Origin: Haematococcus lacustris
Lineage: Eukaryota > Chlorophyta > Chlorophyceae > Chlamydomonadales > Haematococcaceae
Assembly: GCA_030144725.1 (NCBI GenBank)
Contig: JASKMD010000017.1
Span: 9,900,308-9,964,307 of the forward strand
DNA length: 64,000 nucleotides
Direction: 5' to 3'
The position numbers and the translations under genes are program-made. Shown here in pieces: positions 18,739 to 43,806 of this stretch (positions are counted from its first letter, which is position 1; every line of letters begins with the position of its first letter). The notes beneath the pieces are model-generated. The model ran no database searches. It worked only from the letters and a program-made list of their open reading frames with translations, and was not told where the DNA came from.

Positions 18739-21700
18739 TCAATGGAACATTTTCACATACTTTTGGCCACGACCCAGACTGCGGGGGTCCATGGGCCCGA
18801 GTGGCCAGCGCGGTAGCACCTCGACGTTCTTCTCTGCTGACTCCTCGTCTCGAGGTGCTCGGTGCGCCAACCCAAGCTGCAGGCGCTCAATGCCCGTCCA
18901 CGCCACCATCAACCCATTGTCAGTGCAGTACCTGTGGTGACGAGGCATTGATGGGCACGGACATGAGGTGGCAAGGCAACCATGAATCTTATCCCACTGC
19001 TGCCTAGTGGTGATGCCGAGGGCAGTCTAAGGACGTTCATAGCGTGCTGCTGGCTTAGCGGTGTCAACCGGAGACAATAGGCACGAAGGCAATAGGCACA
19101 ATAGGCACGGCCGGTGCATGCGTCAAGGTAAGGACAAAGCGTGCTGGTGATAAGAAGTGTCCCAACTGCATGGACTCACTGGGGTGGCGGGCAGACGAGG
19201 GGCAGATCCGCCTCCTGAGCAACGCTTGCCAAGCCCGCCCTTACCGCCTTGTTTGCAGCCACGCCCCCAGCCACAACCAGACAGCTCACGGCCGGGCCTC
19301 CGCCTTGCCTCTGGTCCTCCTGCTCCCATTGCAAAGCACATATGGTAATCAGTAAGCAAGCAAGCGGCAAGGTAGGCAGGGGGCCAGTCAGACGGGTATG
19401 TAGTCAGACAGGTCGATTGGCCCACACCCTTGCACAGCAGTGCACGTCAGCCCATGCTATCACACATCCAAAGAGATAGGTAAGAGCAGATGGAGAACAG
19501 CTCACCCACAAACACAGTGCTGTAGAGCATCAGGGGTAGCGAGGCCAAAGCAGCTGGCAAGACATGAGGGGTCACAGCTTAGCTGTACAGGCGGAGCTGG
19601 CTACCACTAGAGCCCTATGTGGCTCTGCCCGTTGCCATGGCAAGGCCCAGCCAGAGGCCCGCGGCACTGCAGCCTGCACCAGGGTGGCTGTGTACTCAAC
19701 CGGCCACGGAGGGGTGTAGCCTGAGGCACAAGCGGACTGGTGCAAGCCTCCTGTACAGCTACAGTGTGGGGCGCAGCGCACCTGCAGCCATGCCAGGGCC
19801 CGGCGGGTGCGCTGCTGCAGGAATGCCACGGCCGCCTTCTGGAACGCAGCGGCAATGTCAGCCGCTGAGCGGGACAGCTGGTCAGCCAGTGCAGGCGACT
19901 CAACAGGCGCAGACCCGCCCGCGTCAGCTGCAGGGGCTGCAGGGCTCTTGCAAGTGTCTTGGTGCGGTGAGGTGGGGCCTGGCTTGCCTGTCTCGGTGGG
20001 TGCAGCAGGTGCGCTACTGCCCAATGGCTGGGCAGGCAGGCAGGCTGTTGGAGTCCCTGGCCCTGGACAGCTGCCTGTGCCGGGCAGCGCTGACTGGGCG
20101 GGAGCGGCTGGGCAAGGGGTGCTACCTCCTGCGCTGCTGCTGGGTGCTGCTGCATCACAGCCTGGGTTGGTGGTTGGGGGCGGGGCCCGGGCGGAGGAGA
20201 GTGGCGCACCCAGCCGCTGCTCCTCCTCCTGCAGCAGTCTTGAGACCGCTGTCTTTAAGCCACTGAACGAGAAATTGCACGAGTCCTGCACCCACAGGCA
20301 GGCAGCCAGGGTACTGAGGGGTAGGGCACGGCAGGCTTGACACGGTCAAGTGCTAGACATCGCTGCCAGAGGAGCCCTGCATCCCATCCCATCCCATCCC
20401 ATCCCATCCCATCCCATCCCATCCCATCCCATCCCATCCCATCCCATCCCATCCCATCCCATCCCATCCCATCCCATCCCATCCCATCCCATCCCATCCC
20501 ATCCCATCCCATCCCATCCCATCCCATCCCATCCCATCCCATCCCATCCCATCCCATCCCATCCCATCCCATCCCATCCCATCCCATCCGCCATTACAGT
20601 CCAGCCCAACTCGGCCTGTCCTTGGACATAGCCACGGCAGGGGCCAGGAGGGGTCGGGACAGCTAGCTGGCAGTGGGCCCACAGCAGCACCTTGTGAGCT
20701 CCGGTCTGCAGGGGTAGGGGCATTTTGAAGCGCGATGCATCGCCCTTAGCAGCCAGGGCTTCCAGCAGAGGTCCCCCTGGCAGGGCAGGCACCATGGGGG
20801 GAGCAGGCTGGCGGCAAGGCCCTCTGCTGCTGGGAGCAAAGTAGACCCAGGCACTGCGCTGGCTGCAGGGGAGGCTGCTGGTGAGAGGGTGCTGTGCAGG
20901 CCCAGAGGCCGCCAGGCAGCAGAGGGAAGCAGTGGGCAGGGTGTAGGACAACAATACACTCACACAGGCCTAGCTCATGAGTTGCCCACTCTGGTCCTCA
21001 ACGCTCTCATGCTTGCTCACCAACCGTCAACCCAGTATGTTCTTGCCCTTCCCCCACCCTCCCCTACCCTCCCCTACCCTCGCCCGCCCTCCCTGCGCTT
21101 CCCTACCCTCCCCTGCCCTCCCCTGCCCTCCCCTGCCCTCCCCTGCCCTCCCCTGCCCTCCCCTGCCTTCCTCTACCCTCTCCCACCTGGGATAACAGTG
21201 ATTCCCAGCAGGCGTGCGATCTTGTCAAAGCTCTCCCCCAGGCTGTCATCCAGAGTGGTGCCCAGCAGGCGGTGGCGGCCCACCCCCTCCACCAGCACCA
21301 GCAGGTTGTGGCCCCCAGACACGAGCAGCACCAAGGCGGGGAACGTCATTGCGGGGCTCAGGCCCAGGGAGGGGAGGCGGGCTGTCAGCGCATGCGCCTC
21401 CATGTGATGCACTGGAATGAAGGGCAGGCCATGGCGGGCAGCCAGACGCAAGCCATGGCGAATCCCTACCTGGGCAAGGAGGCATAGAGGCAGGGGCAGC
21501 AGGGGTGAGGAGGGGGGCTGATGGGCAGGAGCAGGAGTGTGGGCCAAGGCGGAAGCAGCCACACGCACCTGCAGGCATAAGGACAGCCCCGGTCCTACTG
21601 TCACTGCCACGGCTGTGAGCTCGTGCGGTGCCACCCCTGCTGCAGCCAGGCAGTCGTCCACGGTGGCGGTAATGGCGGCGGCATGGGCGTCTCGGGCCAC

Positions 21701-23139
21701 GTCAGGCTTGACACCGCCCCACACCTCATGCAGCCCCACCTGCAGCAGAGGGAGAGGCAGGGGCTGTGGCTCACTGCTGGGGGGAGGGCCAGCAGTGGCC
21801 TGCCAGCCACGTTGTGGGAGGAGGAGGGGCCGCCCCCGCCAGTGCAACAAACCTATCCCTCCTCCCCTCCACCATGCCCTGACACCCACCTGGGAGGCAA
21901 TCCTCTGGCCCAACACGCAGCCGTCACCACGCACCACCGCAGCAGCTGTGTCATCACAGCTGCTCTCTATGCCCAGCACCAGCCACTTGGTGGGGTCAGT
22001 TTCCCGCACCCCCAAGCTGGCCAGCTTGCTGAGTAGGGTGCTGGGGGCAGCGGGGCCAGCGGGGCGCACTGACAGCCTGCTGGCCTGCTGCACACCCTGT
22101 GCCTCAGCCTGATCTGCTTGCACTGCTGGGCTGTGGGCTGACGCCCCTGACACATTATGGGGCAGCTGATCAGTCCCGAGGGAGGGAGGGCGAGAAGGTA
22201 GCTGACCATTGCCCGTGCAGGGGGTGGGGTCTAAACCTGGTGGCATGTAACCAGCTGTCCCACTGCTCTGGCCCAAGGCTTGGCTGGCAGCAACTGCGGC
22301 AGGCTGCTGCTGCTGCTTGCTGCTGTGAGTGGCTCGTAAGCGTGCTATGACGTCAGCGCACGGGTCATCTGGAGTGAGGGGTGTGAGGTTGATGAGGCGG
22401 CCAACAGCCTGTGCTCCCATACCACTGCACACACAGGGCAGCAGAGGTGATGGTAGAGCTGGCTAGGAAGCTGCGGGTGGTGGCTGGCGGCTATGCAAGG
22501 GGCATGCAGCACCTGGCTGGGAGGATCAGGCCCCCACCTGCCCGCCCCTTCTTGCAGTGGCCCCTGATGCAAGCAGCCATGGCAGTCCACACACCGCCTG
22601 GGCACCATGCAACCTTGCCTACCCACTTGCCTAGCTCAGGGCAGCACATTCAGGAGGACGGGTTCATAGTCAAGCATGCAGGACAGACAAGTCGCCCTGT
22701 GGCCGTACATCAGCAGTGAGCAAAGCTGTGAGCAAGGCTTCACGGAAGTGGAGGCAGAGGTGCAGTAGCGGGCAGTACAGGTGAGGCCACACCTGACCAG
22801 CACCTGGCAGCCGCGGTGTGGGAGCGCCATGACCTGGCGAGGCATGCGGTCCGGCCACTCCACCAGGCACACGTCACGCTGGAAGGCTGCGGCCCAGTCC
22901 AGCAGCCCAGCCATCTTGTCCACTTTGGTGCCCAGGCGGTAAGGGTCGATGTGGTGCAGGCTGCAGATGGGGCCCGCAGGCCTCACGCCGCTGCTGCTGA
23001 TGCTGGGGGTTGAGCCCTGCTCCTCTGAGCTCTGAGCATTGGGTGGTTGCACTGACTGACTAGGAGCTGCAGTCTGGACAGGGGCACAAGCAGCCTGCAT
23101 GGGTAGTTTGGGCGTTGCACAGAGTTTACTGTTTGCCGG

Positions 23140-23171
<32 letters not shown>

Positions 23172-24392
23172 GAGATGAGTTTGCTTCAGCCTCTGTCATG
23201 GTGGCGTCATAAGTACCATTGTGGCAATCACTCAGGCCCTCAGCAGCAGGACGCAGCTTTCCCTGCTGTGCCACTGGATGTTGTGGCTGCGCGCCCTCGC
23301 CCCTGCTGCCCTGTGTGGCCTGACGCATGGCTGGCTCTGGGGGCAGCAGCTGATGGCTGGCAGTGTCTGCAGCCTGCCCCTCCTCCGCATTGTATGACAA
23401 GCATAGCAGGAAGGTGGGTGACGGCACTTCCAGCATCGGGTTGCAGCAGAAGGCGCGCACAAAGCCCCGGGCGATCGTGGACTTGCCTAGTCAGCCATGG
23501 CATGCATGCAGGCAATGCAAGCGTGTGGCAATGACCAAGCAGGAGTCATGCTGGCTAGACATGTGCTGCATGCTGCATGCTAGCACTTCTCGTAGGTTAC
23601 CAATGCATTGCAGGCGGGGTCGCAAGGAGCCAGTGCCCCGCCCTCACCTGCCCCCAGCTCTCCTTTGAGGAGTACCACTGAGCCTGGGCTGCCACCCAGT
23701 GCCTCACACAGCATGCCACCAAACTCCTCCTGCTGCTCACTGCAGCCAGCCCAAAAGTGGAACCCAGGGGCGTGGCTGTCGGGCAGAGCGTTTTGAATGG
23801 CGGCAACCAGTGGACCTGCTCGGTCGCTGGTCAGCTGTGAGATAGGGGTGCCGTCTGCCTGTTGTGATGTGGGCGTTGACGGTGCAGCGTAGCAAGGGAT
23901 GAGCTGGAAGTGCAGTTGTGGGACGGTCTGGCCTGCAGGAGCTCCATTCTCCTGCACGATCCGCAGGCCTGCAAGCATGTAGCTCATGCATGATGTATTC
24001 CCACCACACAGCAATGCTGTTGAAGGCGCACCTGTGCAGCCGGTCGCTTTTTGGACAGCCCGGGCCAGAACTCCCAAGTCAGGGATGATGCCTTGTGCAA
24101 CATCGGGTGGCAACTCCTCTAGAATGGTCGCGGCAGCATGTTTGACAACCAGGAGGGCATGGCCGTGCGACTCTGGTTTCTGGCTCAGTATAGCGAAAGT
24201 AGCCGGCCTACTAAACAGCAGCAGTCCGGACTGCTGATGGTTGGAGACGCGCTCCAGCACATTGGGGTCGTGCCGTATGTGCGGCAAGTCTTTGCCCGAT
24301 GCGGCGGGGTGCACCATTTTACGCCTCTTGCTTCGTTCTTGCATATCAGCGTCACCGCATAGCGCCGCACTGTGCAGAAACACGACCTGCAT
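18739..24392 (-). CDS. Fused HIT - TsaE - TsaD protein (t6A tRNA modification)
   Basis: Ten exons: 24392-24032, 23968-23648, 23486-22793, 22424-21890, 21739-21569, 21469-21187, 20776-20691, 20285-19782, about 19319-19180 and 18931-18739. All introns are GT-AG and all phases agree, giving 1095 residues. Residues about 55-160 are a HIT domain (GQTVP, then QLHFQLIP at 138-145). Residues about 185-475 are TsaE, with P-loop GELGAGKST (223-231), VPSPTF (248-253), HHIDPYRL (405-412) and VEWPDR; a low-complexity insert of about 140 residues splits it. After a Gln-rich linker, TsaD runs from about 605 to 1095: ESSCDDT, the metal-binding HMEAH (716-720), LLVSGGHN, GESFDK, FSFSGLKTAV, VVAGGVAAN and CTDNGLMVAWTG. 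TsaD and TsaE act together in bacterial-type threonylcarbamoylation of tRNA A37. The TsaD resembles the mitochondrial/plastid Qri7/GCP1 type, so an organellar site is likely; no clear transit peptide was seen. Exon 9 could start at 19319 or 19310. Confidence 0.88.
20380..20589. repeat. (CCCAT)n pentanucleotide tract, ~42 copies, in an intron
   Basis: An almost perfect 5-bp repeat lying in the 405-bp intron between exons 7 and 8 of the HIT-TsaE-TsaD gene. The transcribed sense is GGGAT-rich. Long Gly-Trp-Asp and Ser-His-Pro frames across it are translations of the repeat, not genes. Confidence 0.98.
21055..21182. repeat. CCCTGCCCTC-type pyrimidine tandem repeat in an intron
   Basis: A 10-bp degenerate repeat (CCCTCCCCTA grading into CCCTCCCCTG) just inside the donor of the intron after exon 6 of the TsaD fusion gene. 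On the gene's strand it is G/A-rich. Confidence 0.85.
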
Positions 24393-25767
24393 GGCGCATC
24401 AACCCATGCTGTAGCAACCCCTAAATGTGCCCCCCGATTGTGCCTTGCAGTAATGACAAGCCTTCTCCGACCACCCGGAACCTGCCCTCCCACCCCCTCC
24501 CAGCCCCAGCCCCGCACTCCCACCCACTACCAGCCCCAGCCCCGCCCTCCCACCCCCTCCCACCCCTGCGCAACCCTTGCAGCCCCACCCCCTCCCAAGC
24601 CCAGCATAGCCTTCCCACCCCTTCCCACCCCCTTCAACCCCAGCATAGCCTTCCCACTCCCTTCAACCCCAGCCCCGCCCTCCCACCCCCCCTCCCAGCT
24701 GTCCTCCCACCCCCTCACTGCCCTCCCAACCCCGCCACCCACCTTTTCACCCCCTCACACCTTCTCACATCCCCTCACACCCCCTCACATCCCCTCCCAC
24801 CCCCTCCCAGCCCCGCCACTTCCTCCCAGCCCCGCCACCCCCTCCCAACCCCCTCCCACCCACGCTCTTCCACTCAATGGGCCGCAGCCGGTTGCGTGCT
24901 CATCTTCAAGCACTTGTAAAGCCACCAGCCGCAGCAAGGAGGGCTGACGGTATTGCTTTGGAGGTGCACGCCAGAAATGGGTTGTTGATGACCATGAGGG
25001 GCAGCATAGACTGGCAGCAGCATATGCTCTGGCCTACGATGGGCGCGATTACAGCCACACCACTGAGGAGCAGGCTCACAGTGGAGCTGGACACGAGCTC
25101 GCCACGCAAGCGAAGGGCGGGCGTGAGGCATCGGACCCAACCTGCCCAGCAAGGTAACACCTACACACCTACACACCATGTGAGGCCTTGCAGAGTTGCC
25201 AAATCATCAGTACTGCTCACGAAGGGGTCAACAACGCTCCAGCGTCGTGTATTTCCGTGCATGTGTAGAGGGGCGTTGTTACATCGGTCATGTAAGTCGA
25301 TGTAAGTGCCATGTAAGTCGATAAGGCTGCGCCGACTGTTCCTAACTGTGTGCAGGCTCTCCTAGGCCAGGTCGATCGCGGCGGTCTCCCGCGACGAGGC
25401 CCGCATAAGCAAGAACTGCATTAATTTGAATGCCAAGATTCGAGCCGCCATTGCACTCAGCAAACTGCACAGTCATTTCTGATACGAGTTGGACCGCATA
25501 GCTGACAGATTCGTCTATCCGGGGACGTGCGATACATAAATAGAAACTACGTGGCTGAGACGCGGCGTCGTTTTGATTACCAGGGGTAAGTTTTCTGTTA
25601 GTTGAGAACACCTGACTTAGGCAATGATCACGCTGCTTGTGCCTGATTACAACTCGTGCTTTGTTTTGGTGTATCATGAGTTCTGTAGGGGAAGAAAGTT
25701 GTAATGGCGATGAAAACAAAACAGGAAAACAGGATGCGAGAAAAATAAACAAGCAATCAGTGTATCG
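24393..25767. other. Divergent intergenic region between the fusion gene and RAE1
   Basis: 24470-24870 is a pyrimidine-rich low-complexity block (CCTCCCACCCC units). About 24890-25155 on the plus strand is open and ends at a good GTAACA donor (PRKRRAGVRHRTQPAQQ), so it could be an exon of an unrecognised gene or a gene fragment. 25160-25767 shows nothing coding and presumably holds the RAE1 promoter. Confidence 0.35.
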
Positions 25768-27140
25768 ATGTTCGGTGTGGCAGCTCCTAAGGCCAACTAC
25801 AATCCCAACTCCGATGTGGAAGTCGCAGTGCCGGCCGATCTCGACGGCATTTCAAGCGTGCGATGGAGCCCCACTGCCAACTTTCTAGCAGCAAGTAGTT
25901 GGAATCATAGCGTGTACGTGTGGGACATTCAGCCCACTGGTCAGACAGTCCCCAAGGCCCAGAATAAGGACCACACGCAGCCAGTGCTCTGTACAGCCTG
26001 GAACCAAGATGGCAGCCAGCTCTTTACGGGGGGGTGCGACAAGTCAGTCCGGCTGTGGAACCTGGCCACCAACCAAAGCCAGCAGGTTCGTGCTTGCGAC
26101 GTTCGTCCATTGCATTCGCATCGCATGTGTTGCACTGCAGACGGCATCCAGACGCAGTGGGGTTTGTTGTGCAGGTTGCCCAGCATGATGCACCAGTCGC
26201 GCACTGCTTCCACGTCCCCAGCATGAACATGCTGGTCACTGGCAGCTGGGACAAGACCATGAAGTTCTGGGATTGCCGCACCCCCACAGCTGCCCACTCT
26301 CAGACTCTACCAGAGCGCATTTATGCAATGGATGTCAACTATCCGCTGGCAGTCTTAGGCACTGCAGATCGCAACCTCATCATTTACGACCTTACCAAGC
26401 CACAGGCCGCCTTCAAGACGCTGCAGTCCCCTTTGAAATGGCAGACGCGTTGTGTGGCGTGCTTCCCAGACAAGCAGGGCTACCTAGTGGGCAGCATAGA
26501 AGGTCGAGTGGCAGTGCAGCATGTCGACGATGCTGTGGCCACCACTAAGAACTTCACCTTCAAATGCCACAGAGATGGCAATGACATCTATGCAGTCAAC
26601 TCCATCCAGTTCCATCCAGCCTACGGCACCTTCGTCACTGCTGGGTCAGACGGCACCTACAACTTCTGGGACAAGGACAGCAAGCAGCGCTTGAAGGCCA
26701 TGGCCAAGTGCACATACCCCAACGGCCCTGCCCCCATTCCCTGCAGCAGCTTCAACAAGGATGGCAGCTTGTACGCGTATGCTGTGAGCTACGACTGGAG
26801 CAGGGGCTACAGCGACTATCAGCCCCAGCAGATGAAGAACACCATCCTCCTGCACCAGGTAGGAGCAGTGGCACGCAGCAGTCTGGTATGCAGCAGCAAC
26901 ATGTGCTGCGCCAATGTATGCTAGGGACACCTGGCAGCACTAGGGACACCTTTTCCTAGCTGGGCCGCTGCACTGTGAAGTAGACAGCGCCGCGTTGCCT
27001 TGATCTTGCTGTGCCCAGCTTGTCACTAGCTGGTGGGACGCTGACAACGGAGGTGTGATGCTGTGATGCCTGCACAGGTCAAGGAGGATGAAGTGAAGGC
27101 CAAGCCCAAGGCAGCCACTTCTGTTGCCGGCAGGAAGTGA
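25768..27140 (+). CDS. RAE1: mRNA export factor RAE1/Gle2 (WD40 protein)
   Basis: Nuclear-pore-associated WD40 beta-propeller that binds the GLEBS motif of Nup98 and acts in mRNA export and spindle function. Three exons, 25768-26085, 26175-26858 and 27078-27140, all phase 0, give 354 residues, the usual length. Family markers include the N-terminal DGISSVRWSP, WNHSVYVWDIQ, GGCDKSVRLWNL, GSWDKTMKFWDCR, ERIYAMDVNYPL, PLKWQTRCVACFPD, FKCHRDGNDIYAVNSI and the C-terminal SFNKDGSLYAYAVSYDWSRG. All of these are typical RAE1 positions. The short last exon encodes a Lys-rich tail. No defects were seen. The neighbour COQ5 is on the same strand but functionally unrelated. Confidence 0.95.
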
Positions 27141-35122: not shown

Positions 35123-37786
35123 CTAAGTCTTGCGCTTGCGCTTGGCAGCTGTCTTGGGCAGCCCCAACCCAGCAGGTGTGGTACGCTTGCGTAGCGTGAA
35201 GCCAGGAGCCGGCGCTGCTGCACCTAGCTCACTACCTTGAGCCGGAGCAGCCTGCCCTTGGGTGGCGATTGCAGCTAGAGCCAGCTGATACATGTGCCGT
35301 AAATCAGGTGATGCAATAGGCCCCTGAGGCGACGCAATGGGAGGTGCCAGCATCTGCCCCTCTAGGGCTGTGCCCCACGAGCTCCGGCCCTGCTGCTGGG
35401 GTGGCTGCTGTGGGGGGGGCTGTTGTGGCAGGGGGGGCTGTGGAGGCGGCACACCTGCTGGCACAACTCGGCTGCACCCTGCTGCTGCTGCTGCTGCCAC
35501 CCGTTGCTGGCTTGCATGGTCCCCCACATTCACCACAACCCCCCCTACACAGCAAGCAGCTGCTGTGGCTTTGCGTGCTGCTCTGGCTGGTGCCCTGGCT
35601 GAGGCTGCAGCCACCTCCTCCAGCCGCACCGCAGTGCGAAGCTTAGGCAACTGTAGCGTGAAGTCATGCACATCAACGCTGTTGAGGGTGGTCCTCAGCG
35701 TGTGCAGGGACATGTGCTCCAGCAGAGCAGGCAGCTCCATGAAGCGACCAGCTCCATGCTTCAGCAGCTGTAGCAAGGACTCCACCGGGGCATTGGAGGT
35801 GGGACACGCCAAGAAGTACACCTCGAGGTGGAGGCGCAACCCGGTGCTGCATGGGCTGCCCTCAGCCATGGCATGGATGTCTTGTTCGAACTGTTGCCAC
35901 GTGCAGTGAGGGTCCCACACACCCGGGTCAGACTGCCCATCGTCCATGCGCAAAGCGGCACACTGAACCACCTTGGCGGCTACCTCCTTGCACGACTGCG
36001 GGTCTGACCCCCCAAGCGCAGCCATGAGGTGTGGCATGTCCAGCTGCCGTTTGCAGTGCTGTGTGTAGTACTCCTCCATGGCTGCACAGTGCTGCTGCAA
36101 GTAGGTGGCCAGCTGTTGCTTCTGATGCTCCCGTTGATCGGCTGGCACTAGCTGTTGTAGCTTGCTGTGCAGCTGTGACAGCAGCTGCGCGTTGTTGGCC
36201 CATGGCTGCTGCAGGCCCTTGCAAACCTGCTGGATGTGGCGGTATAGCTGGAAGGCATGCAGGCCATCGTCCTTGCTGGCCCACAGCAGCTCAGGCATGA
36301 GGTAAGTCTGGCCCACCACTGCCACAACAGTAATCTTCAGCAGCAGATCAGAGTCCTGCAAGTGCTTGCAGAGCTCACGAGCCCAGGCAGGCGCCCGCCG
36401 CTGCTGGCACTCTACTACCTCAGCCACTGCATCCCCCGCATGCCGCCAGATTGCAAGCAGTGATGAGGCTGCAGTAATGTAGCTGGCCCACCTTGTGTCA
36501 CATGGTGTCTCAGGTTTCGCACCCCACCGGTCGAGCTTCAGCGCCACCCAATGTTGCGCTAGGAGACTGCTGAGGTCAGTGATTGCTGCCCTGGTGCCTG
36601 GCAGGACCACCAGACCTTTGAGGAGGGTGTTGTGGATGCCGTGGCTGTAACAGGGCTGCGCCCGCGTCACCCCAACCTGCCCCTCCTCCCGCAACAGTTG
36701 GCTGATGCGTGCAATGACACCTGTGAATTCCCCCATGTTGACTGATGCACTGTCGGCGCAGATGCCGGCAATATTCATGCCTGCGAGGCCGAGGTCACCC
36801 AACAACCGCATGATGACCCGCACATGGGCCTCCGCTGTGCCGCTGGCCAACTGGATGACACCCAGGACGTCGGTGAAGATGGTGGTGAGGCGTGGGGCAG
36901 CAGTTGAGCATGACTGCCCCACATGCTCCACCTGCCCCTCGTGACCCGGTTGCCCCTGACCCACTGGCTCTTTCCCAGACCCCGGTTCCTGCTGAGCTTG
37001 CCCTCCCCCTTGCTCTGCTGCTTGCCCATGCTGCTCCTCCTGCCCCTGCGGCTTAGGGACTGCTGCTGTGACCCTGATGACGAGCACCTTCCCATGGCGC
37101 TTGGTTGTGCATCCGTCAAATGCCAAGTGTATCGCCTTGGCTTGCTTCAACATCTCTGCAGGCGCAGTAGCAAAGTAGAAAGCATGTCATCCCTGACTCA
37201 GCCCCTCATTCATCCACCACCTCCCAGACCACTATCGCCCAGCCCAGCCCAGCCCAGCCCAGCAGTCCAGCCCAGCAGTCCAGCCCAGCAGTCCAGCCCA
37301 GCCGTGGGTGTCTGGCCTGCCATAGCCATCCTCAGCACACCGCTGCAACACCTCCGGTGACACCCGGTGCCGCATCAGGATGTTCATTAGCTGCCGCTGA
37401 TGCCGGGTGAGCCGGGGGCCACTTGGACGGCAGCGCCGGACGTTGCGTAGCGCAAGGGATAGCCGGCGCTTGTCTTGCTCCAGCAGCTGGATTGCATGGG
37501 TGCGCTCCTCAGCCAGCTGCTCCAATGACACATTCTCACCCTGCACCTCTTGGTGTGCTGCCTGCAGCTGCTCCATGTCTGCCTGCAGCAGCTGATAATC
37601 TGCCACCGCATCACCGAGCTGCTGGTGGAGCTGCTCAACCTGTGCCCGCAATTTCATGGCCTCCACCTGTGCCTTGTTCCTTTGAGATTTCAAACCATTG
37701 GGGGTGCACTTAAACCCTGCCTTGGGTGAGGCATTCAGCTCTTGCAGGGATTGGCGCCGCGTCTTGCTAGGCCTCTTACCCCCCAT
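35123..37786 (-). CDS. hAT-like (DUF659-type) transposase
   Basis: Two coding blocks. The first, 37786 to about 37300, starts MGGKRPSKTRRQSLQEL, is a basic N-terminus followed by a Gln/Leu-rich coiled coil of about 100 residues, and ends with RHQRQLMNILMRHRVSPEVLQ. The second runs from about 37155 (acceptor CTGCAG) to 35123 and is 676 codons: LAFDGCTTKRHGKVLVI, ICADSASVNMG, CYSHGIHNTLLKGL, PCDTRWASY and ILLLLKHG-like C-terminal helices. The D-G-C/W, C-A-D-S-A and D-T-R-W blocks fit the RNase H-fold catalytic core of hAT/DUF659 transposases. A Gly/Gln/Lys-rich insert (about residues 35-70 of the second block) and an Ala/Pro-rich tail are low complexity. The donor of the intron between the blocks was not fixed. 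The long frame looks intact. Confidence 0.75.
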
Positions 37787-38758: not shown

Positions 38759-41700
38759 TTAGAGGGGCTTTGGTGGCTGGGGCCAGGGCACAGGCGCACC
38801 TACAACACGAAGGGGGTGCCATGTGTCAGTGATGGCTACCAGGTAACGTGAATCATGAGGATGGGGGCGCAATGCAAACTTGGTTGGTAGGACATCATTG
38901 CATGGCCAGATTGCAGTAATGCCCTTGGTGCACACTGCCTTGCTCAACAAGGGGCTCTGCAACTCAACATCATATGCACCACACCTTGGCGACCTGTGCC
39001 ATCTTGTGACAAAGAAATACCTGCGCCGCTGCAATCTAACATGGGAGATGATCTTCACAATCTGGCCCACCCACAGTGCCTTGGCGAGGGCTGTGTGTGC
39101 CAAGCCCTCATCTTGTGCATGCTCTGTCACGTCCTCAAAGCCTGGCCGTGCCATGAAATACTGGTTGGGCTTGAACAATACTCCTGAGATCCTGATGTTG
39201 TGGTGCTGTTGTGCATTCATGACAGTCCACAGCTCTGCAGCAGCACGAATCTCAGCATCAAATTCTGGGAACGGCTCACTACGGCCACTCATCCACACCG
39301 GCCAGTGGTGTCTCAACTCGACACACACTGCAGCAGACATCCTTGCATCTTGAGTAATGCCTTTGCCACGCCGCCATGCTCTTTTTCCATGTGCTTGAAG
39401 AGCATGCTTGCCTCTGGATACCTACGGTTCTTGGGGTCCCTCTGCATCTGTCCAAACATGCTCTCAACAGGGAACATGGTCAGCACGAATAGTGGTCCCC
39501 ACCTCCGTACGTTCTCCATCAACATCATCAGCTCATGCAACTTCACATCTAACTCTGACACTGGAAGGTACCTCTCCACCATGCAAACCGCAATAGCCAG
39601 CAAGCGTTGAAGGCGGGGCAGGGACTCTTTGTGCACCTCCTTGCACCACATTATGTTGATCACTTGCAGTAAGAGCATCAGCGTGGCATACGCTGTGGGA
39701 CGCAGCAGTGCCTTAGCTGAAGCCAAAGCATACAACCCTATGGGCCCAGCAAACTGCAGCATGGTGTGCACCTTTCTCTTCTTGGCAGGATCCATGAGCC
39801 TACCCAGGCGATATCCTACATCACCAGGAAGGAGCTTCTGAAGTTGCACAAGTGATTGAATGATAGGGGAGAGGGAGCAAGGTGCACAGGGTGAAGAGCG
39901 GGACAGATCACATTCATAGCGTTGCAGCTCAGACTCAATATTGATCACGGCAGGCACCCAGCGCAAGCCTAGCAGAACTCCCAACACAGTGTCCTTAACA
40001 ATCCCGCCTAACACATGCATGGGATCATACTGAACAGCATCATGGAAATCAAAGTGGGGGAGTTGCAAAAACAAGCAAGACCCATCTTGAAGCCCATCAC
40101 CCAAATCATCAATCAGCGGCTGTGCACTATCATCGATCTGATCTCCAGCCGCATCAAATGAAGCGTCACCCTCAGACTCATCATCTCCCTCTTCACAGTC
40201 CCACCCCACAGGCCGTTGGTCATCCCCCTCGTCTAACTCAGGGTCTAGGCTCCCTCCCTCGCCATCGCTGCCACTGTCCCCATGCACGTCCCCATGCACA
40301 CCTGGATCTGGTCCAAGCCAATAGGCACCTTCCCATCCCCGTCGCTCAGGCACTGCAGGCAACATGTGGGTGGGGTGGGGTGGGTGGTGGGGTGGGGTGG
40401 GGTGGGGTGGGGTGGGGTGGGGTGGGGTGGGGTGGGGTGGGGTGGGGTGGGGTGGGGTGGGGTGGGGTGGGGTGGGGTGGGGTGGGGTGGGGTGGGGTGG
40501 GGTGGGGTGGGGTGGGGTGGGGTGGGGTGGGGTGGGGTGGGGTGGGGTGGGGTGGGGTGGGGTGGGGTGGGGCTGGACACAACGAGGCACTCACCCGCAC
40601 CACAAAGCAAATCAGCATGGCCAGCTGGATTAGCTGGAAGAAGGACATTCTGGTGTACCTCTTTGGGGTGCCTCTTCCGGATGCCATTGGTATCAGGGAC
40701 CGGGAGCTTGACGCCACAGAGTTCTTCTTTCAGCCATTGGTCCTGCTCCGCAAGGAACCTGCAACAACAAGCTCAAGTGTCATGCTCACATGTCATACAT
40801 GATGGGCATGGTAGGCAGGCTCACACGTGCATGCACAACCATACACACGTGCATGCACAACCATACACCTCTGCATTGTACAACACATGAGCATGAGCGC
40901 ACACTCACTGTTGGTGGGTCTGGTATAATGTCTTGTACTTGCCATGGCGCTTGCCTTCAAGCCATGTCAAGAAGCACGGGTGCCTCGCTGGCGACTGCTT
41001 CTGATTGGAGCCCATGGCTAGGGCCAGGCCTCGGTAGTCACCCCTGACGCATGCAAGGATTGCCTTGACACGGCGGCTTTCCTCCAGGTAAGAGTTGTGC
41101 ACCTCCACGGCCCCGTCAAGGCTGAGCAAGTCTTCAACAATGAGCAGCAAGGCATCCACGATGCTCTGCTTCTCTCCGCGCTCCTTGGCCCCAGGCATGA
41201 GGCATACAAGGTGTGAAACTCCCGGTACAGATCTATGCTCAGCTGCCACGGTGAGGGGAGCCAACACAAATGCTGTAGTAGAGTACTTAGCGTCGTCCTT
41301 GTGGGGTTGGAAGCTGTCAAAGGAGAGGGACATGGGCACTAGTCCCGTCTCAGCTGTCCCGTCTCCATGCCTGCAAGACCACACCACGACAAACAGTCAC
41401 CATCCCTGTTGTGGGTGTGGGGGAGGGGGAGGTCAGGGTCAAGGTCAGGGTCTGGGCCAGGGTCAGGGTTAGGTGACACTGCTTTGCTGGCTGGCCTGAA
41501 TGGTTCTATAAGCGTGTGCCATATGGGCAACTGCAACACATTGTAGGCCACCCCAAGGATTACCCCACTCACCTCTCCAGCACTCTCTCAAATGCAGGGC
41601 TGTGCCATGCGTCAGACATGGTGTGGCTGTCGCGCGTGTACTCAGCCCGGAGATCCCGCCACAGGGTCAACTGCTCTGCCAGGGCTGGATACGCATACAT

Positions 41701-42669: not shown

Positions 42670-42788
42670 GTTGCTCCCACACTAGTTAAACTGGGTTCGT
42701 TCAACTCGGCGAGGTGGCCTTAAACTAGGTTAAGTGTGATAACTGACTAGTTTAGTCGTTTAACTCATGTACCCCTGGTGTAGGGTTG

Positions 42789-43531
42789 GTGCCTAGGACC
42801 ATGTCCGGGCTCAAGGTGAACTCACCCCCCATCAGCTCTCTGGCGGCAAGCTGGAACTGAGCACTCCAGCTGGTCTGGCAACCCCTGCCTAACTCCACAT
42901 CTGCCTTGATGACCCTCATTAGCAGGTCACTGTGGGATAGTTTGGCAGTGTTCCAGAACTTGCATGCAGCCCTAAGCCAGTAAAGTTGGAGGGGCAGCTG
43001 CCCCAACTCATGCAGCACCATCAGGCCTGACACTGAGCCACGTACCCTGGCAGCAAACCTGAGAAAGCTGAGCATGCGTGTTTGCACTGGGTTGGAGAGC
43101 TGCATACCGTGCCCAAGGAAGGCAGTGCCCCATACCTGGCTGCCATACAGCCCTAAAGGGAGCACAAACGCTCTAATGAGGTGACACAGGGCATAGGGAT
43201 CATGCAGGACCCCATACTCTCTAGCGCGCTTGCACGCCTGGCGCATGGCGAGGAACATGCCAGCCCTCATATGAGTGGCAGCAAAAGCAGGGGTGGCGCT
43301 GGGGTTGAAGTGCATGCCTAAGTACTTGAACTCTCTCACCACAGGCAGGATCTCATGCTTGTACCCAATCCTAGGTGCTGCAGTTTGTGAGTTGCCATTG
43401 AAGACCATCACCTTTGACTTGCCCACATTGACTGTAAGGTGTTTCCTGTCTGCAAAGCCTTGAAGCTGGCAGCTGGCATTGTTCTTCATCAACATTTCGA
43501 AGCCTATAAAATAAGCCCATGCTGCATTCAA
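42789..43531 (-). pseudogene. LINE reverse transcriptase, part upstream of the CACTA insertion
   Basis: Open frame of about 245 codons reading FADRKHLTVNVGKSKVMVF, FKYLGMHFNPSA, YGSQVWG and the conserved C-terminal helices of a LINE-type reverse transcriptase (palm end and thumb). The N-terminal half with the catalytic YADD box is missing, so the copy is 5'-truncated near 43540, common for LINEs. Its frame runs into the CACTA terminal repeat at 42785 and resumes at 31933. Confidence 0.85.
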
Positions 43532-43806
43532 GCTGGTGGAGTGTGTCCTAGGTTCGCCTCATGAATTTAGTACAGCCTGGTAATGCGTGTTGCGCTCGCC
43601 CGCATCTGTTTTTATCCTCGTCATGGTAATACATGGAAGGCACTGAATGAATGTACGCAGAACAAGCGTATGCACCGAGCTTCACTCTTCCACTTGTCAT
43701 GCGTCCGATCTGCAAGTTGTCAGGACCTGCACAATCTGCACATACCTATACTGTATGCATTGACACGCTTCGCCCGAGATGTAAGGTGGCCACGCAGCGC
43801 TGGCAC

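Follow-up and report, generated by a model that had tools for sequence, protein, structure and literature searches.

In a 64,000-nucleotide stretch of the Haematococcus lacustris genome (contig JASKMD010000017.1, positions 9,900,308 to 9,964,307 of the forward strand; below, the window, numbered from its first letter), a single gene on the minus strand encodes a protein in which three domains, HIT, TsaE and TsaD, are joined in one chain. That the fusion is real is confirmed by four lines of evidence, i.e., each of the two domain junctions is contained in one open exon, a second copy of the gene is intact, the constraint on the protein follows its domains and relatives with the same architecture exist. 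The protein is probably a eukaryotic enzyme of the Qri7 type for the tRNA modification N6-threonylcarbamoyladenosine (t6A), which carries its own TsaE, would probably be independent of TsaB and may act in the nucleus or cytosol.

The gene, as rebuilt from the window, is composed of ten exons that form a single frame of 1095 codons plus a stop (3288 nucleotides), and all nine introns have GT-AG borders and compatible phases. The gene model of the first-pass annotation is thereby reproduced, including a serine codon split across positions 22793 and 22424. The elements of the locus are listed below.

18739-24392, minus strand: whole fusion gene, HIT-TsaE-TsaD, ten exons, 1095 residues
24032-24392, minus strand: exon 1, start codon and bulk of the HIT domain
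23648-23968, minus strand: exon 2, a single open exon with the strand of the HIT motif and, as far as the Walker A loop, the first strand of TsaE
22793-23486, minus strand: exon 3, most of TsaE, terminating between the last two TsaE strands
22425-22792, minus strand: intron 3, 368 nucleotides, within the TsaE fold
21890-22424, minus strand: exon 4, last TsaE strand (residues 468-474), TsaE C-terminal helix (482-491), linker and first three TsaD strands (607-636)
21569-21739, 21187-21469 and 20691-20776, minus strand: exons 5 to 7
19782-20285, 19180-19319 and 18739-18931, minus strand: exons 8 to 10
24318-24329, minus strand: KRRK basic patch, residues 22-25, resembling a nuclear signal
23892-24221, minus strand: HIT domain (Pfam), residues 58-146, split by intron 1, with QLHFQ in place of HxHxH
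22328-23768, minus strand: TsaE domain, about residues 188-491, with Walker A GELGAGK, HHIDPYRL and VEWP and a low-complexity insert at about residues 266-395
18739-21988, minus strand: TsaD domain, exons 4 to 10, about residues 605-1095, of alphaproteobacterial/mitochondrial type, with HHMEAH and CTDNGLMVAW

The positions of strands and helices were transferred to the window protein from the secondary structure of the model of P0009, a related protein described below. Intron 3 had been regarded as the critical junction between TsaE and TsaD; its borders are correct, but it interrupts TsaE itself rather than the space between two genes, because exon 4 carries both the end of TsaE and the start of TsaD. 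This shared exon rules out a reading as separate genes. The frame, the second copy and the junction exons agree on one gene that yields one fused protein with a genuine TsaE/TsaD junction, as had been proposed. Candidate start codons are M1, M17 and M26, and intron 1, which is only 63 nucleotides long and free of in-frame stops, might be retained. Intron 7 contains a long GGGAT pentanucleotide array (about 20377-20590), which is shorter in the second copy.

The second copy lies on the same contig, at about 5.54 Mb, with ten matching exons, GT-AG borders, a length of 3288 nucleotides and a lone terminal stop. Its annotated protein, P0001 (QJQ45_018726, Haematococcus lacustris), which begins at M26, displays 95% identity over 98% of the query. 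Between the copies, TsaD residues 604-840 have a ratio of nonsynonymous to synonymous substitution rates (dN/dS) of 0.024 and residues 966-1095 one of 0.065; TsaE residues 195-265 differ by two synonymous and no nonsynonymous changes, and the remaining TsaE gives 0.165. Higher values are found in the TsaE insert (0.9), the linker (1.4) and the TsaD insert (0.39). Purifying selection thus acts on TsaD and the TsaE core. In HIT residues 26-150 one synonymous and three nonsynonymous changes were counted, which are too few to prove relaxation, yet are consistent with decay.

Two protein searches (14 rows each) identified 12 database proteins with all three domains. Eleven of the 14 rows of the first search belong to this class, from Haematococcus, Chlamydomonas sp. 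UWO 241, C. incerta, Astrephomene, Pleodorina, Gonium, two Volvox, Tetradesmus, an MMETSP transcript and an unnamed protein, while TsaE and TsaD are present in the remaining three. The MMETSP transcript (P0009) is labelled complete and has the same domain order as the window protein. The second search adds P0068, with three domains, and P0069, a gene call that comprises HIT, TsaE and the first TsaD residues before it leaves the reading frame. The first-pass annotation had named separate genes for the three domains in related algae as the case that would speak against a fusion; with all three domains in 11 of 14 rows, this is not the pattern observed. In a further search, in which a HIT-less relative supplied its TsaE part as query and 8000 candidates were scored, 40 of 55 relatives are composed of TsaE and TsaD and 14 of TsaE and PF01636; TsaD is present in 41 in all, including P0049 (Effrenium), for which the precomputed domain list shows TsaD alone, although the match falls on the TsaE region. 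HIT is listed in none of these 55 rows. Most rows are without a species name; among those that are named, Symbiodinium, Effrenium, Prymnesium and Chrysochromulina represent dinoflagellates and haptophytes, and the labels "symbB" and "Hpha" probably stand for Breviolum and Hemistasia. In the databases the fusion proteins are called, for example, "hypothetical protein", "GCP1" or "Glycoprotease 1".

In the titles and abstract openings of open-licence papers, among the matches listed, neither a TsaE-TsaD nor a HIT-TsaE-TsaD fusion was met, in line with the earlier remark that no described fusion also carries a HIT domain. Thus, the domains are individually known and the proteins are already in public databases, while the architecture and its spread were not met in these literature matches.

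All three domains of the window protein are recognized by Pfam: HIT at residues 58-146 (E 8.8e-11), TsaE in two stretches, the best at 199-262 (E 3e-17; 63.2 bits against a cut-off of 26.6), and TsaD at 629-1043 (E 1.5e-72). The TsaD part also passes the equivalog model TIGR03723 (311.6 bits, cut-off 296.1) and remains far below the Kae1 model TIGR03722 (157.5 bits against 375), i.e., it is not of the Kae1 type. No kinase domain was found in the fusion by Pfam. The TsaE part displays the Walker A, HxDxYR and EWP motifs and a complete fold; in the structural comparison of the whole fusion TsaD dominates. Across 12 aligned fusions the HHxxxH, SGGH, GGVAAN and DNG motifs are invariant, and all 12 keep H369, H373, S417-H420, A570-N576 and D604 (P0014 numbering); the window protein has HHMEAH, SGGH, AGGVAAN and TDNG at these sites. 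We take the two histidines and the aspartate to form the metal site and assume for SGGH and GGVAAN the roles generally assigned to them. Among the relatives, P0012 (Tetradesmus obliquus) has LLLSPVDPSPFTAIARG where the P-loop is expected in the Walker A region, which is perhaps a gene-model fault and otherwise indicates a dead TsaE.

The HIT part has the HIT fold and matches solved structures of HIT proteins, but its HxHxH triad is altered, to QxHxQ in both Haematococcus copies and to QxHxH in the other 12 HIT forms. Consequently, the first motif histidine is replaced by glutamine in 14 of 14 forms and the central histidine is kept in all of them. In Haematococcus the domain looks degenerate.

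A TsaD tree of 124 domains places 45 rows, including the window protein and P0049, in one clade (support of 100 in the Shimodaira-Hasegawa-like approximate likelihood ratio test) beside alphaproteobacteria, in a comparison that, like the other tree, includes neither cyanobacteria nor named Qri7, OSGEPL1 or plant GCP1 proteins. The 13 HIT-bearing TsaDs group inside this clade together with P0011, which begins inside TsaE and is possibly truncated at its 5' end. The MxAW signature is present in 45 of 45 TsaDs of the fusion set, 38 of 46 from alphaproteobacteria and 1 of 28 from gamma- and betaproteobacteria, counts that leave out five loci of other or unclear kind. In a second tree a branch with a support of 100 separates the fusions and the stand-alone TsaD of the same genome (46 rows) from 30 bacteria, with a program warning that long branches meet. 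The signature and the trees assign the fusion TsaD to the alphaproteobacterial/mitochondrial lineage. Because the 45 TsaDs form one clade and the HIT forms are nested inside it, TsaE and TsaD seem to have been joined once, long ago, and HIT to have been added later, in green algae. A bacterial origin of the fusion as such was ruled out: in the best 80 of at least 588 bacterial stretches, collected with search patterns that favor proteobacteria-like TsaD, no match reaches into TsaE, and all start at query residue 235 or later, before or within TsaD.

What such a protein might do is suggested by the known enzymes. In bacteria TsaE docks at the TsaD-TsaB interface with its ATP in contact with TsaD, which is reset by ATP hydrolysis before the next tRNA, and TsaE is reported not to bind TsaD homodimers (PMC9654439, PMC11648230). 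Qri7 is a homodimer that works with Sua5 alone, and its dimer surface is the one by which bacterial TsaD binds TsaB; Qri7 can also complement KEOPS in yeast (PMC3695523). The TsaD domain of the fusion would accordingly self-associate as in Qri7, which would render TsaB dispensable, and would move the threonylcarbamoyl group from threonylcarbamoyl-AMP (TC-AMP) onto A37 of tRNA. The tethered TsaE may dock on its own TsaD or across the dimer on that of the partner, where it would hydrolyze ATP after every transfer and reset the active site, i.e., a cis version of the bacterial cycle; the tether might offset weak TsaE binding. For HIT the suggestion is weaker: the QxHxH forms may bind or hydrolyze AMP-linked compounds, for instance TC-AMP or the AMP that is produced, and in the QxHxQ forms of Haematococcus such activity is probably weakened or lost. 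A substituted triad need not abolish activity in HIT enzymes: MccH, which has one, cleaves an aspartamide-adenylate with the central histidine as nucleophile (PMC7157772). Because TC-AMP is likewise an acyl-type adenylate, the natural guess is that HIT takes part in the handling of TC-AMP or AMP.

The first-pass annotation had also proposed that the fusion replaces the TsaB platform. No TsaB was detected in the genome (no TIGR03725 match, five candidates scored, by a search that misses split genes; the same model detected the family in 12 of 14 control genomes). This negative result carries little weight because a search of the same kind failed to list the split TsaE exons of the fusion itself.

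The compartment in which the fusion acts is judged from its N-terminus and from the other t6A genes of the genome. By inspection of the sequence no mitochondrial presequence is visible in the fusion. Within its first 42 residues the window protein has five Asp/Glu and the KRRK patch, and a K[KR]x[KR] patch is found within the first 60 residues of 7 of 14 HIT forms. In the HIT-less fusions a presequence has little room because Walker A is so near the start, at or before residue 50 in 34 of the 39 relatives where it is recognizable (a set in which at least P0011 looks 5'-truncated), similar to the TsaE-PF01636 proteins; these fusions thus begin roughly at the beginning of TsaE itself. The genome also encodes a stand-alone, single-exon TsaE in two copies (L090, C2:6972088-6972480; L091, C96:125175-125567) with an Arg-rich leader, i.e., eight Arg/Lys and no Asp/Glu in the first 42 residues from the chosen Met; among the proteins compared, it is matched best in BLAST by a TsaE-PF01636 protein, in the TsaE part (43%). 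A stand-alone organelle-type TsaD is found at 3.77 and 11.38 Mb of the window's contig (C64), and a reading of this locus as Kae1 was ruled out by 56-57% identity to alphaproteobacterial TsaD over one exon. An intron of this gene contains a long hexanucleotide-like repeat with Pro-Ser, Pro-His and Leu-Thr frames (L102, about 245-752). Given the lack of a visible presequence and the separate genes for an organelle-type TsaD and TsaE, the fusion probably acts in the nucleus or cytosol and not in an organelle. The stand-alone TsaD and TsaE would be the natural organelle enzymes and are candidates for this work in Haematococcus; the fusion looks like an addition to them.

Several observations limit this interpretation, in which the location is read from the sequence and the Haematococcus fusion from its genes. 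A motif resembling a nuclear localization signal occurs in the C-terminal tail of 14 of 31 HIT-less forms, where 6.8 are expected by shuffling, i.e., a modest excess, and in none of the 13 tailed HIT forms. The TsaE part does not reach the equivalog model TIGR00150 (40.9 bits in two stretches, cut-off 60.1). The stand-alone TsaE is closer by BLAST to the TsaE-PF01636 proteins than to the fusions, which bears on the origin of the fused TsaE. Finally, the stand-alone TsaD was read at the first of its two loci.

A broader proposal, which we regard as tentative and rather doubtful, is that chlorophycean algae such as Haematococcus have lost Kae1 and KEOPS, so that t6A on the nucleus-encoded tRNAs of the cytosol would be formed by the single-chain, TsaB-free enzyme of bacterial type and organellar t6A by the separate TsaD and TsaE; the HIT-less TsaE-TsaD proteins of dinoflagellates, haptophytes and others would act likewise. 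The idea arises because three whole-genome searches (PF00814, 10 matches; TIGR03722, 10; bacterial TsaD, 16, with E up to 1) did not detect Kae1, and all their matches fall on exons of the fusion, the one stand-alone TsaD or their copies. These searches were done exon by exon on a short candidate list, from which genes in short exons can escape; against an absence of Kae1 stand the recovery by PF00814 of just 2 of the 7 TsaD exons of the fusion and the missed TsaE exons mentioned above. Should KEOPS indeed be missing, this would mean the replacement of a complex that is regarded as general in the eukaryotic cytosol. Within the chlorophytes Sua5 is described only from Chlorophyceae (PMC10321239), so an unusual TC-AMP synthase is found in the same class as the HIT form.

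As an alternative, the fusion could be imported into the plastid and/or the mitochondrion and fix the TsaD:TsaE ratio there, as the first-pass annotation had supposed. This alternative we consider unlikely. In its favor, the TsaD of the fusion is of the alphaproteobacterial/mitochondrial type, dual or unconventional import is possible, and chloroplast tRNAs carry t6A made in Chlamydomonas by an enzyme that is listed as unknown (PMC8877259). The acidic residues and the KRRK patch of the N-terminus, the lack of a visible presequence across the family and the presence in the same genome of a separate organelle-type TsaD and an Arg-leader TsaE argue against it and leave the organelle assignment doubtful.

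It is less probable still, and would surprise us, that the fusion, as a paralogue of the organelle enzyme, has a regulatory role or a substrate other than A37 of tRNA, for example free nucleotides. Two organelle-type TsaD genes do exist side by side in the genome, and Pandoravirus TsaN, a TsaC/TsaD-like fusion, produces t6ADP and t6ATP (PMC11077089). The invariant TsaD motifs, the TIGR03723 score and the dN/dS of 0.024 in TsaD residues 604-840 argue against this reading. Very improbable is a locus with two or more products, in which alternative splicing or internal starts yield HIT-TsaE and TsaD apart: an in-frame Met does open exon 4, and read-through of intron 3 would stop a HIT-TsaE product at 22636, but the break would strip TsaE of its last strand and helix, and the relatives, including the transcript labelled complete, keep the fusion. 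An assembly or annotation artefact, suggested by the apparent mirror duplication of C64 with both TsaD genes present twice in opposite orientation, can practically be dismissed, given the same domain order in other species and the two junctions within single exons.

The surroundings of the fusion gene were also inspected. On C64 the two TsaD genes are found on the minus, plus, minus and plus strands at 3.77, 5.54, 9.92 and 11.38 Mb, mirrored around about 7.6-7.7 Mb; either two haplotypes are joined here as a palindrome or the contig contains a large inverted duplication. The divergent neighbor in the window (about 25750-26924, plus strand) resembles by eye the WD40 mRNA export factor RAE1, and the region between it and the fusion gene is rich in GGGTGGGAGG repeats. 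Further open frames on the minus strand resemble, by eye, a hAT-type transposase (35123-37186), another transposase (39313-40590) and a fragment of a non-LTR reverse transcriptase (42752-43558).

From the above discussion a comparison with known systems can be made. With the bacterial TsaD-TsaB-TsaE system the fusion shares the TsaD and TsaE domains with their conserved motifs, where in bacteria the TsaE ATPase works on TsaD; it differs in that both are parts of one chain, in the additional HIT domain, in the undetected TsaB and in the intron-bearing eukaryotic gene. With Qri7, OSGEPL1 and GCP1 it shares an alphaproteobacterial-type TsaD, and it groups with the stand-alone organelle-type TsaD of its own genome; unlike these single-domain proteins it has three domains, with TsaE and HIT added, and no visible presequence. 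With KEOPS (Kae1-Bud32-Cgi121-Pcc1) the fusion would share the reaction and, provided that the inferred location is right, the compartment, but Kae1 belongs to a different TsaD branch, and the fusion lacks a Pfam kinase domain; Bud32, the ATPase of KEOPS, is described as the analogue of TsaE (PMC9654439). The HIT superfamily (the HINT branch and MccH) is matched by Pfam and by solved structures, and the triad of MccH is also substituted; the fusion HIT is distinguished by Gln at the first motif position in 14 of 14 forms and by Gln at the third in the two Haematococcus copies. Archaeal Kae1-Bud32, Pandoravirus TsaN and the TsaE-PF01636 proteins similarly hold t6A subunits or their kin in one chain, but none of them joins TsaE to TsaD. 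The t6A modification is nearly universal, and its formation in eukaryotes is described as the work of KEOPS in the cytosol and of Qri7/OSGEPL1 in mitochondria (PMC9654439). A TsaE-TsaD fusion found in several algal groups matches neither description, and the related joined forms in other algae indicate that the t6A step may run in a way not yet described. The architecture suggests that TsaE can act with a Qri7-type TsaD without TsaB; it raises the question of which compartment is served and, as a single chain that occurs in nature, lends itself to studies of how TsaD is reset by TsaE.

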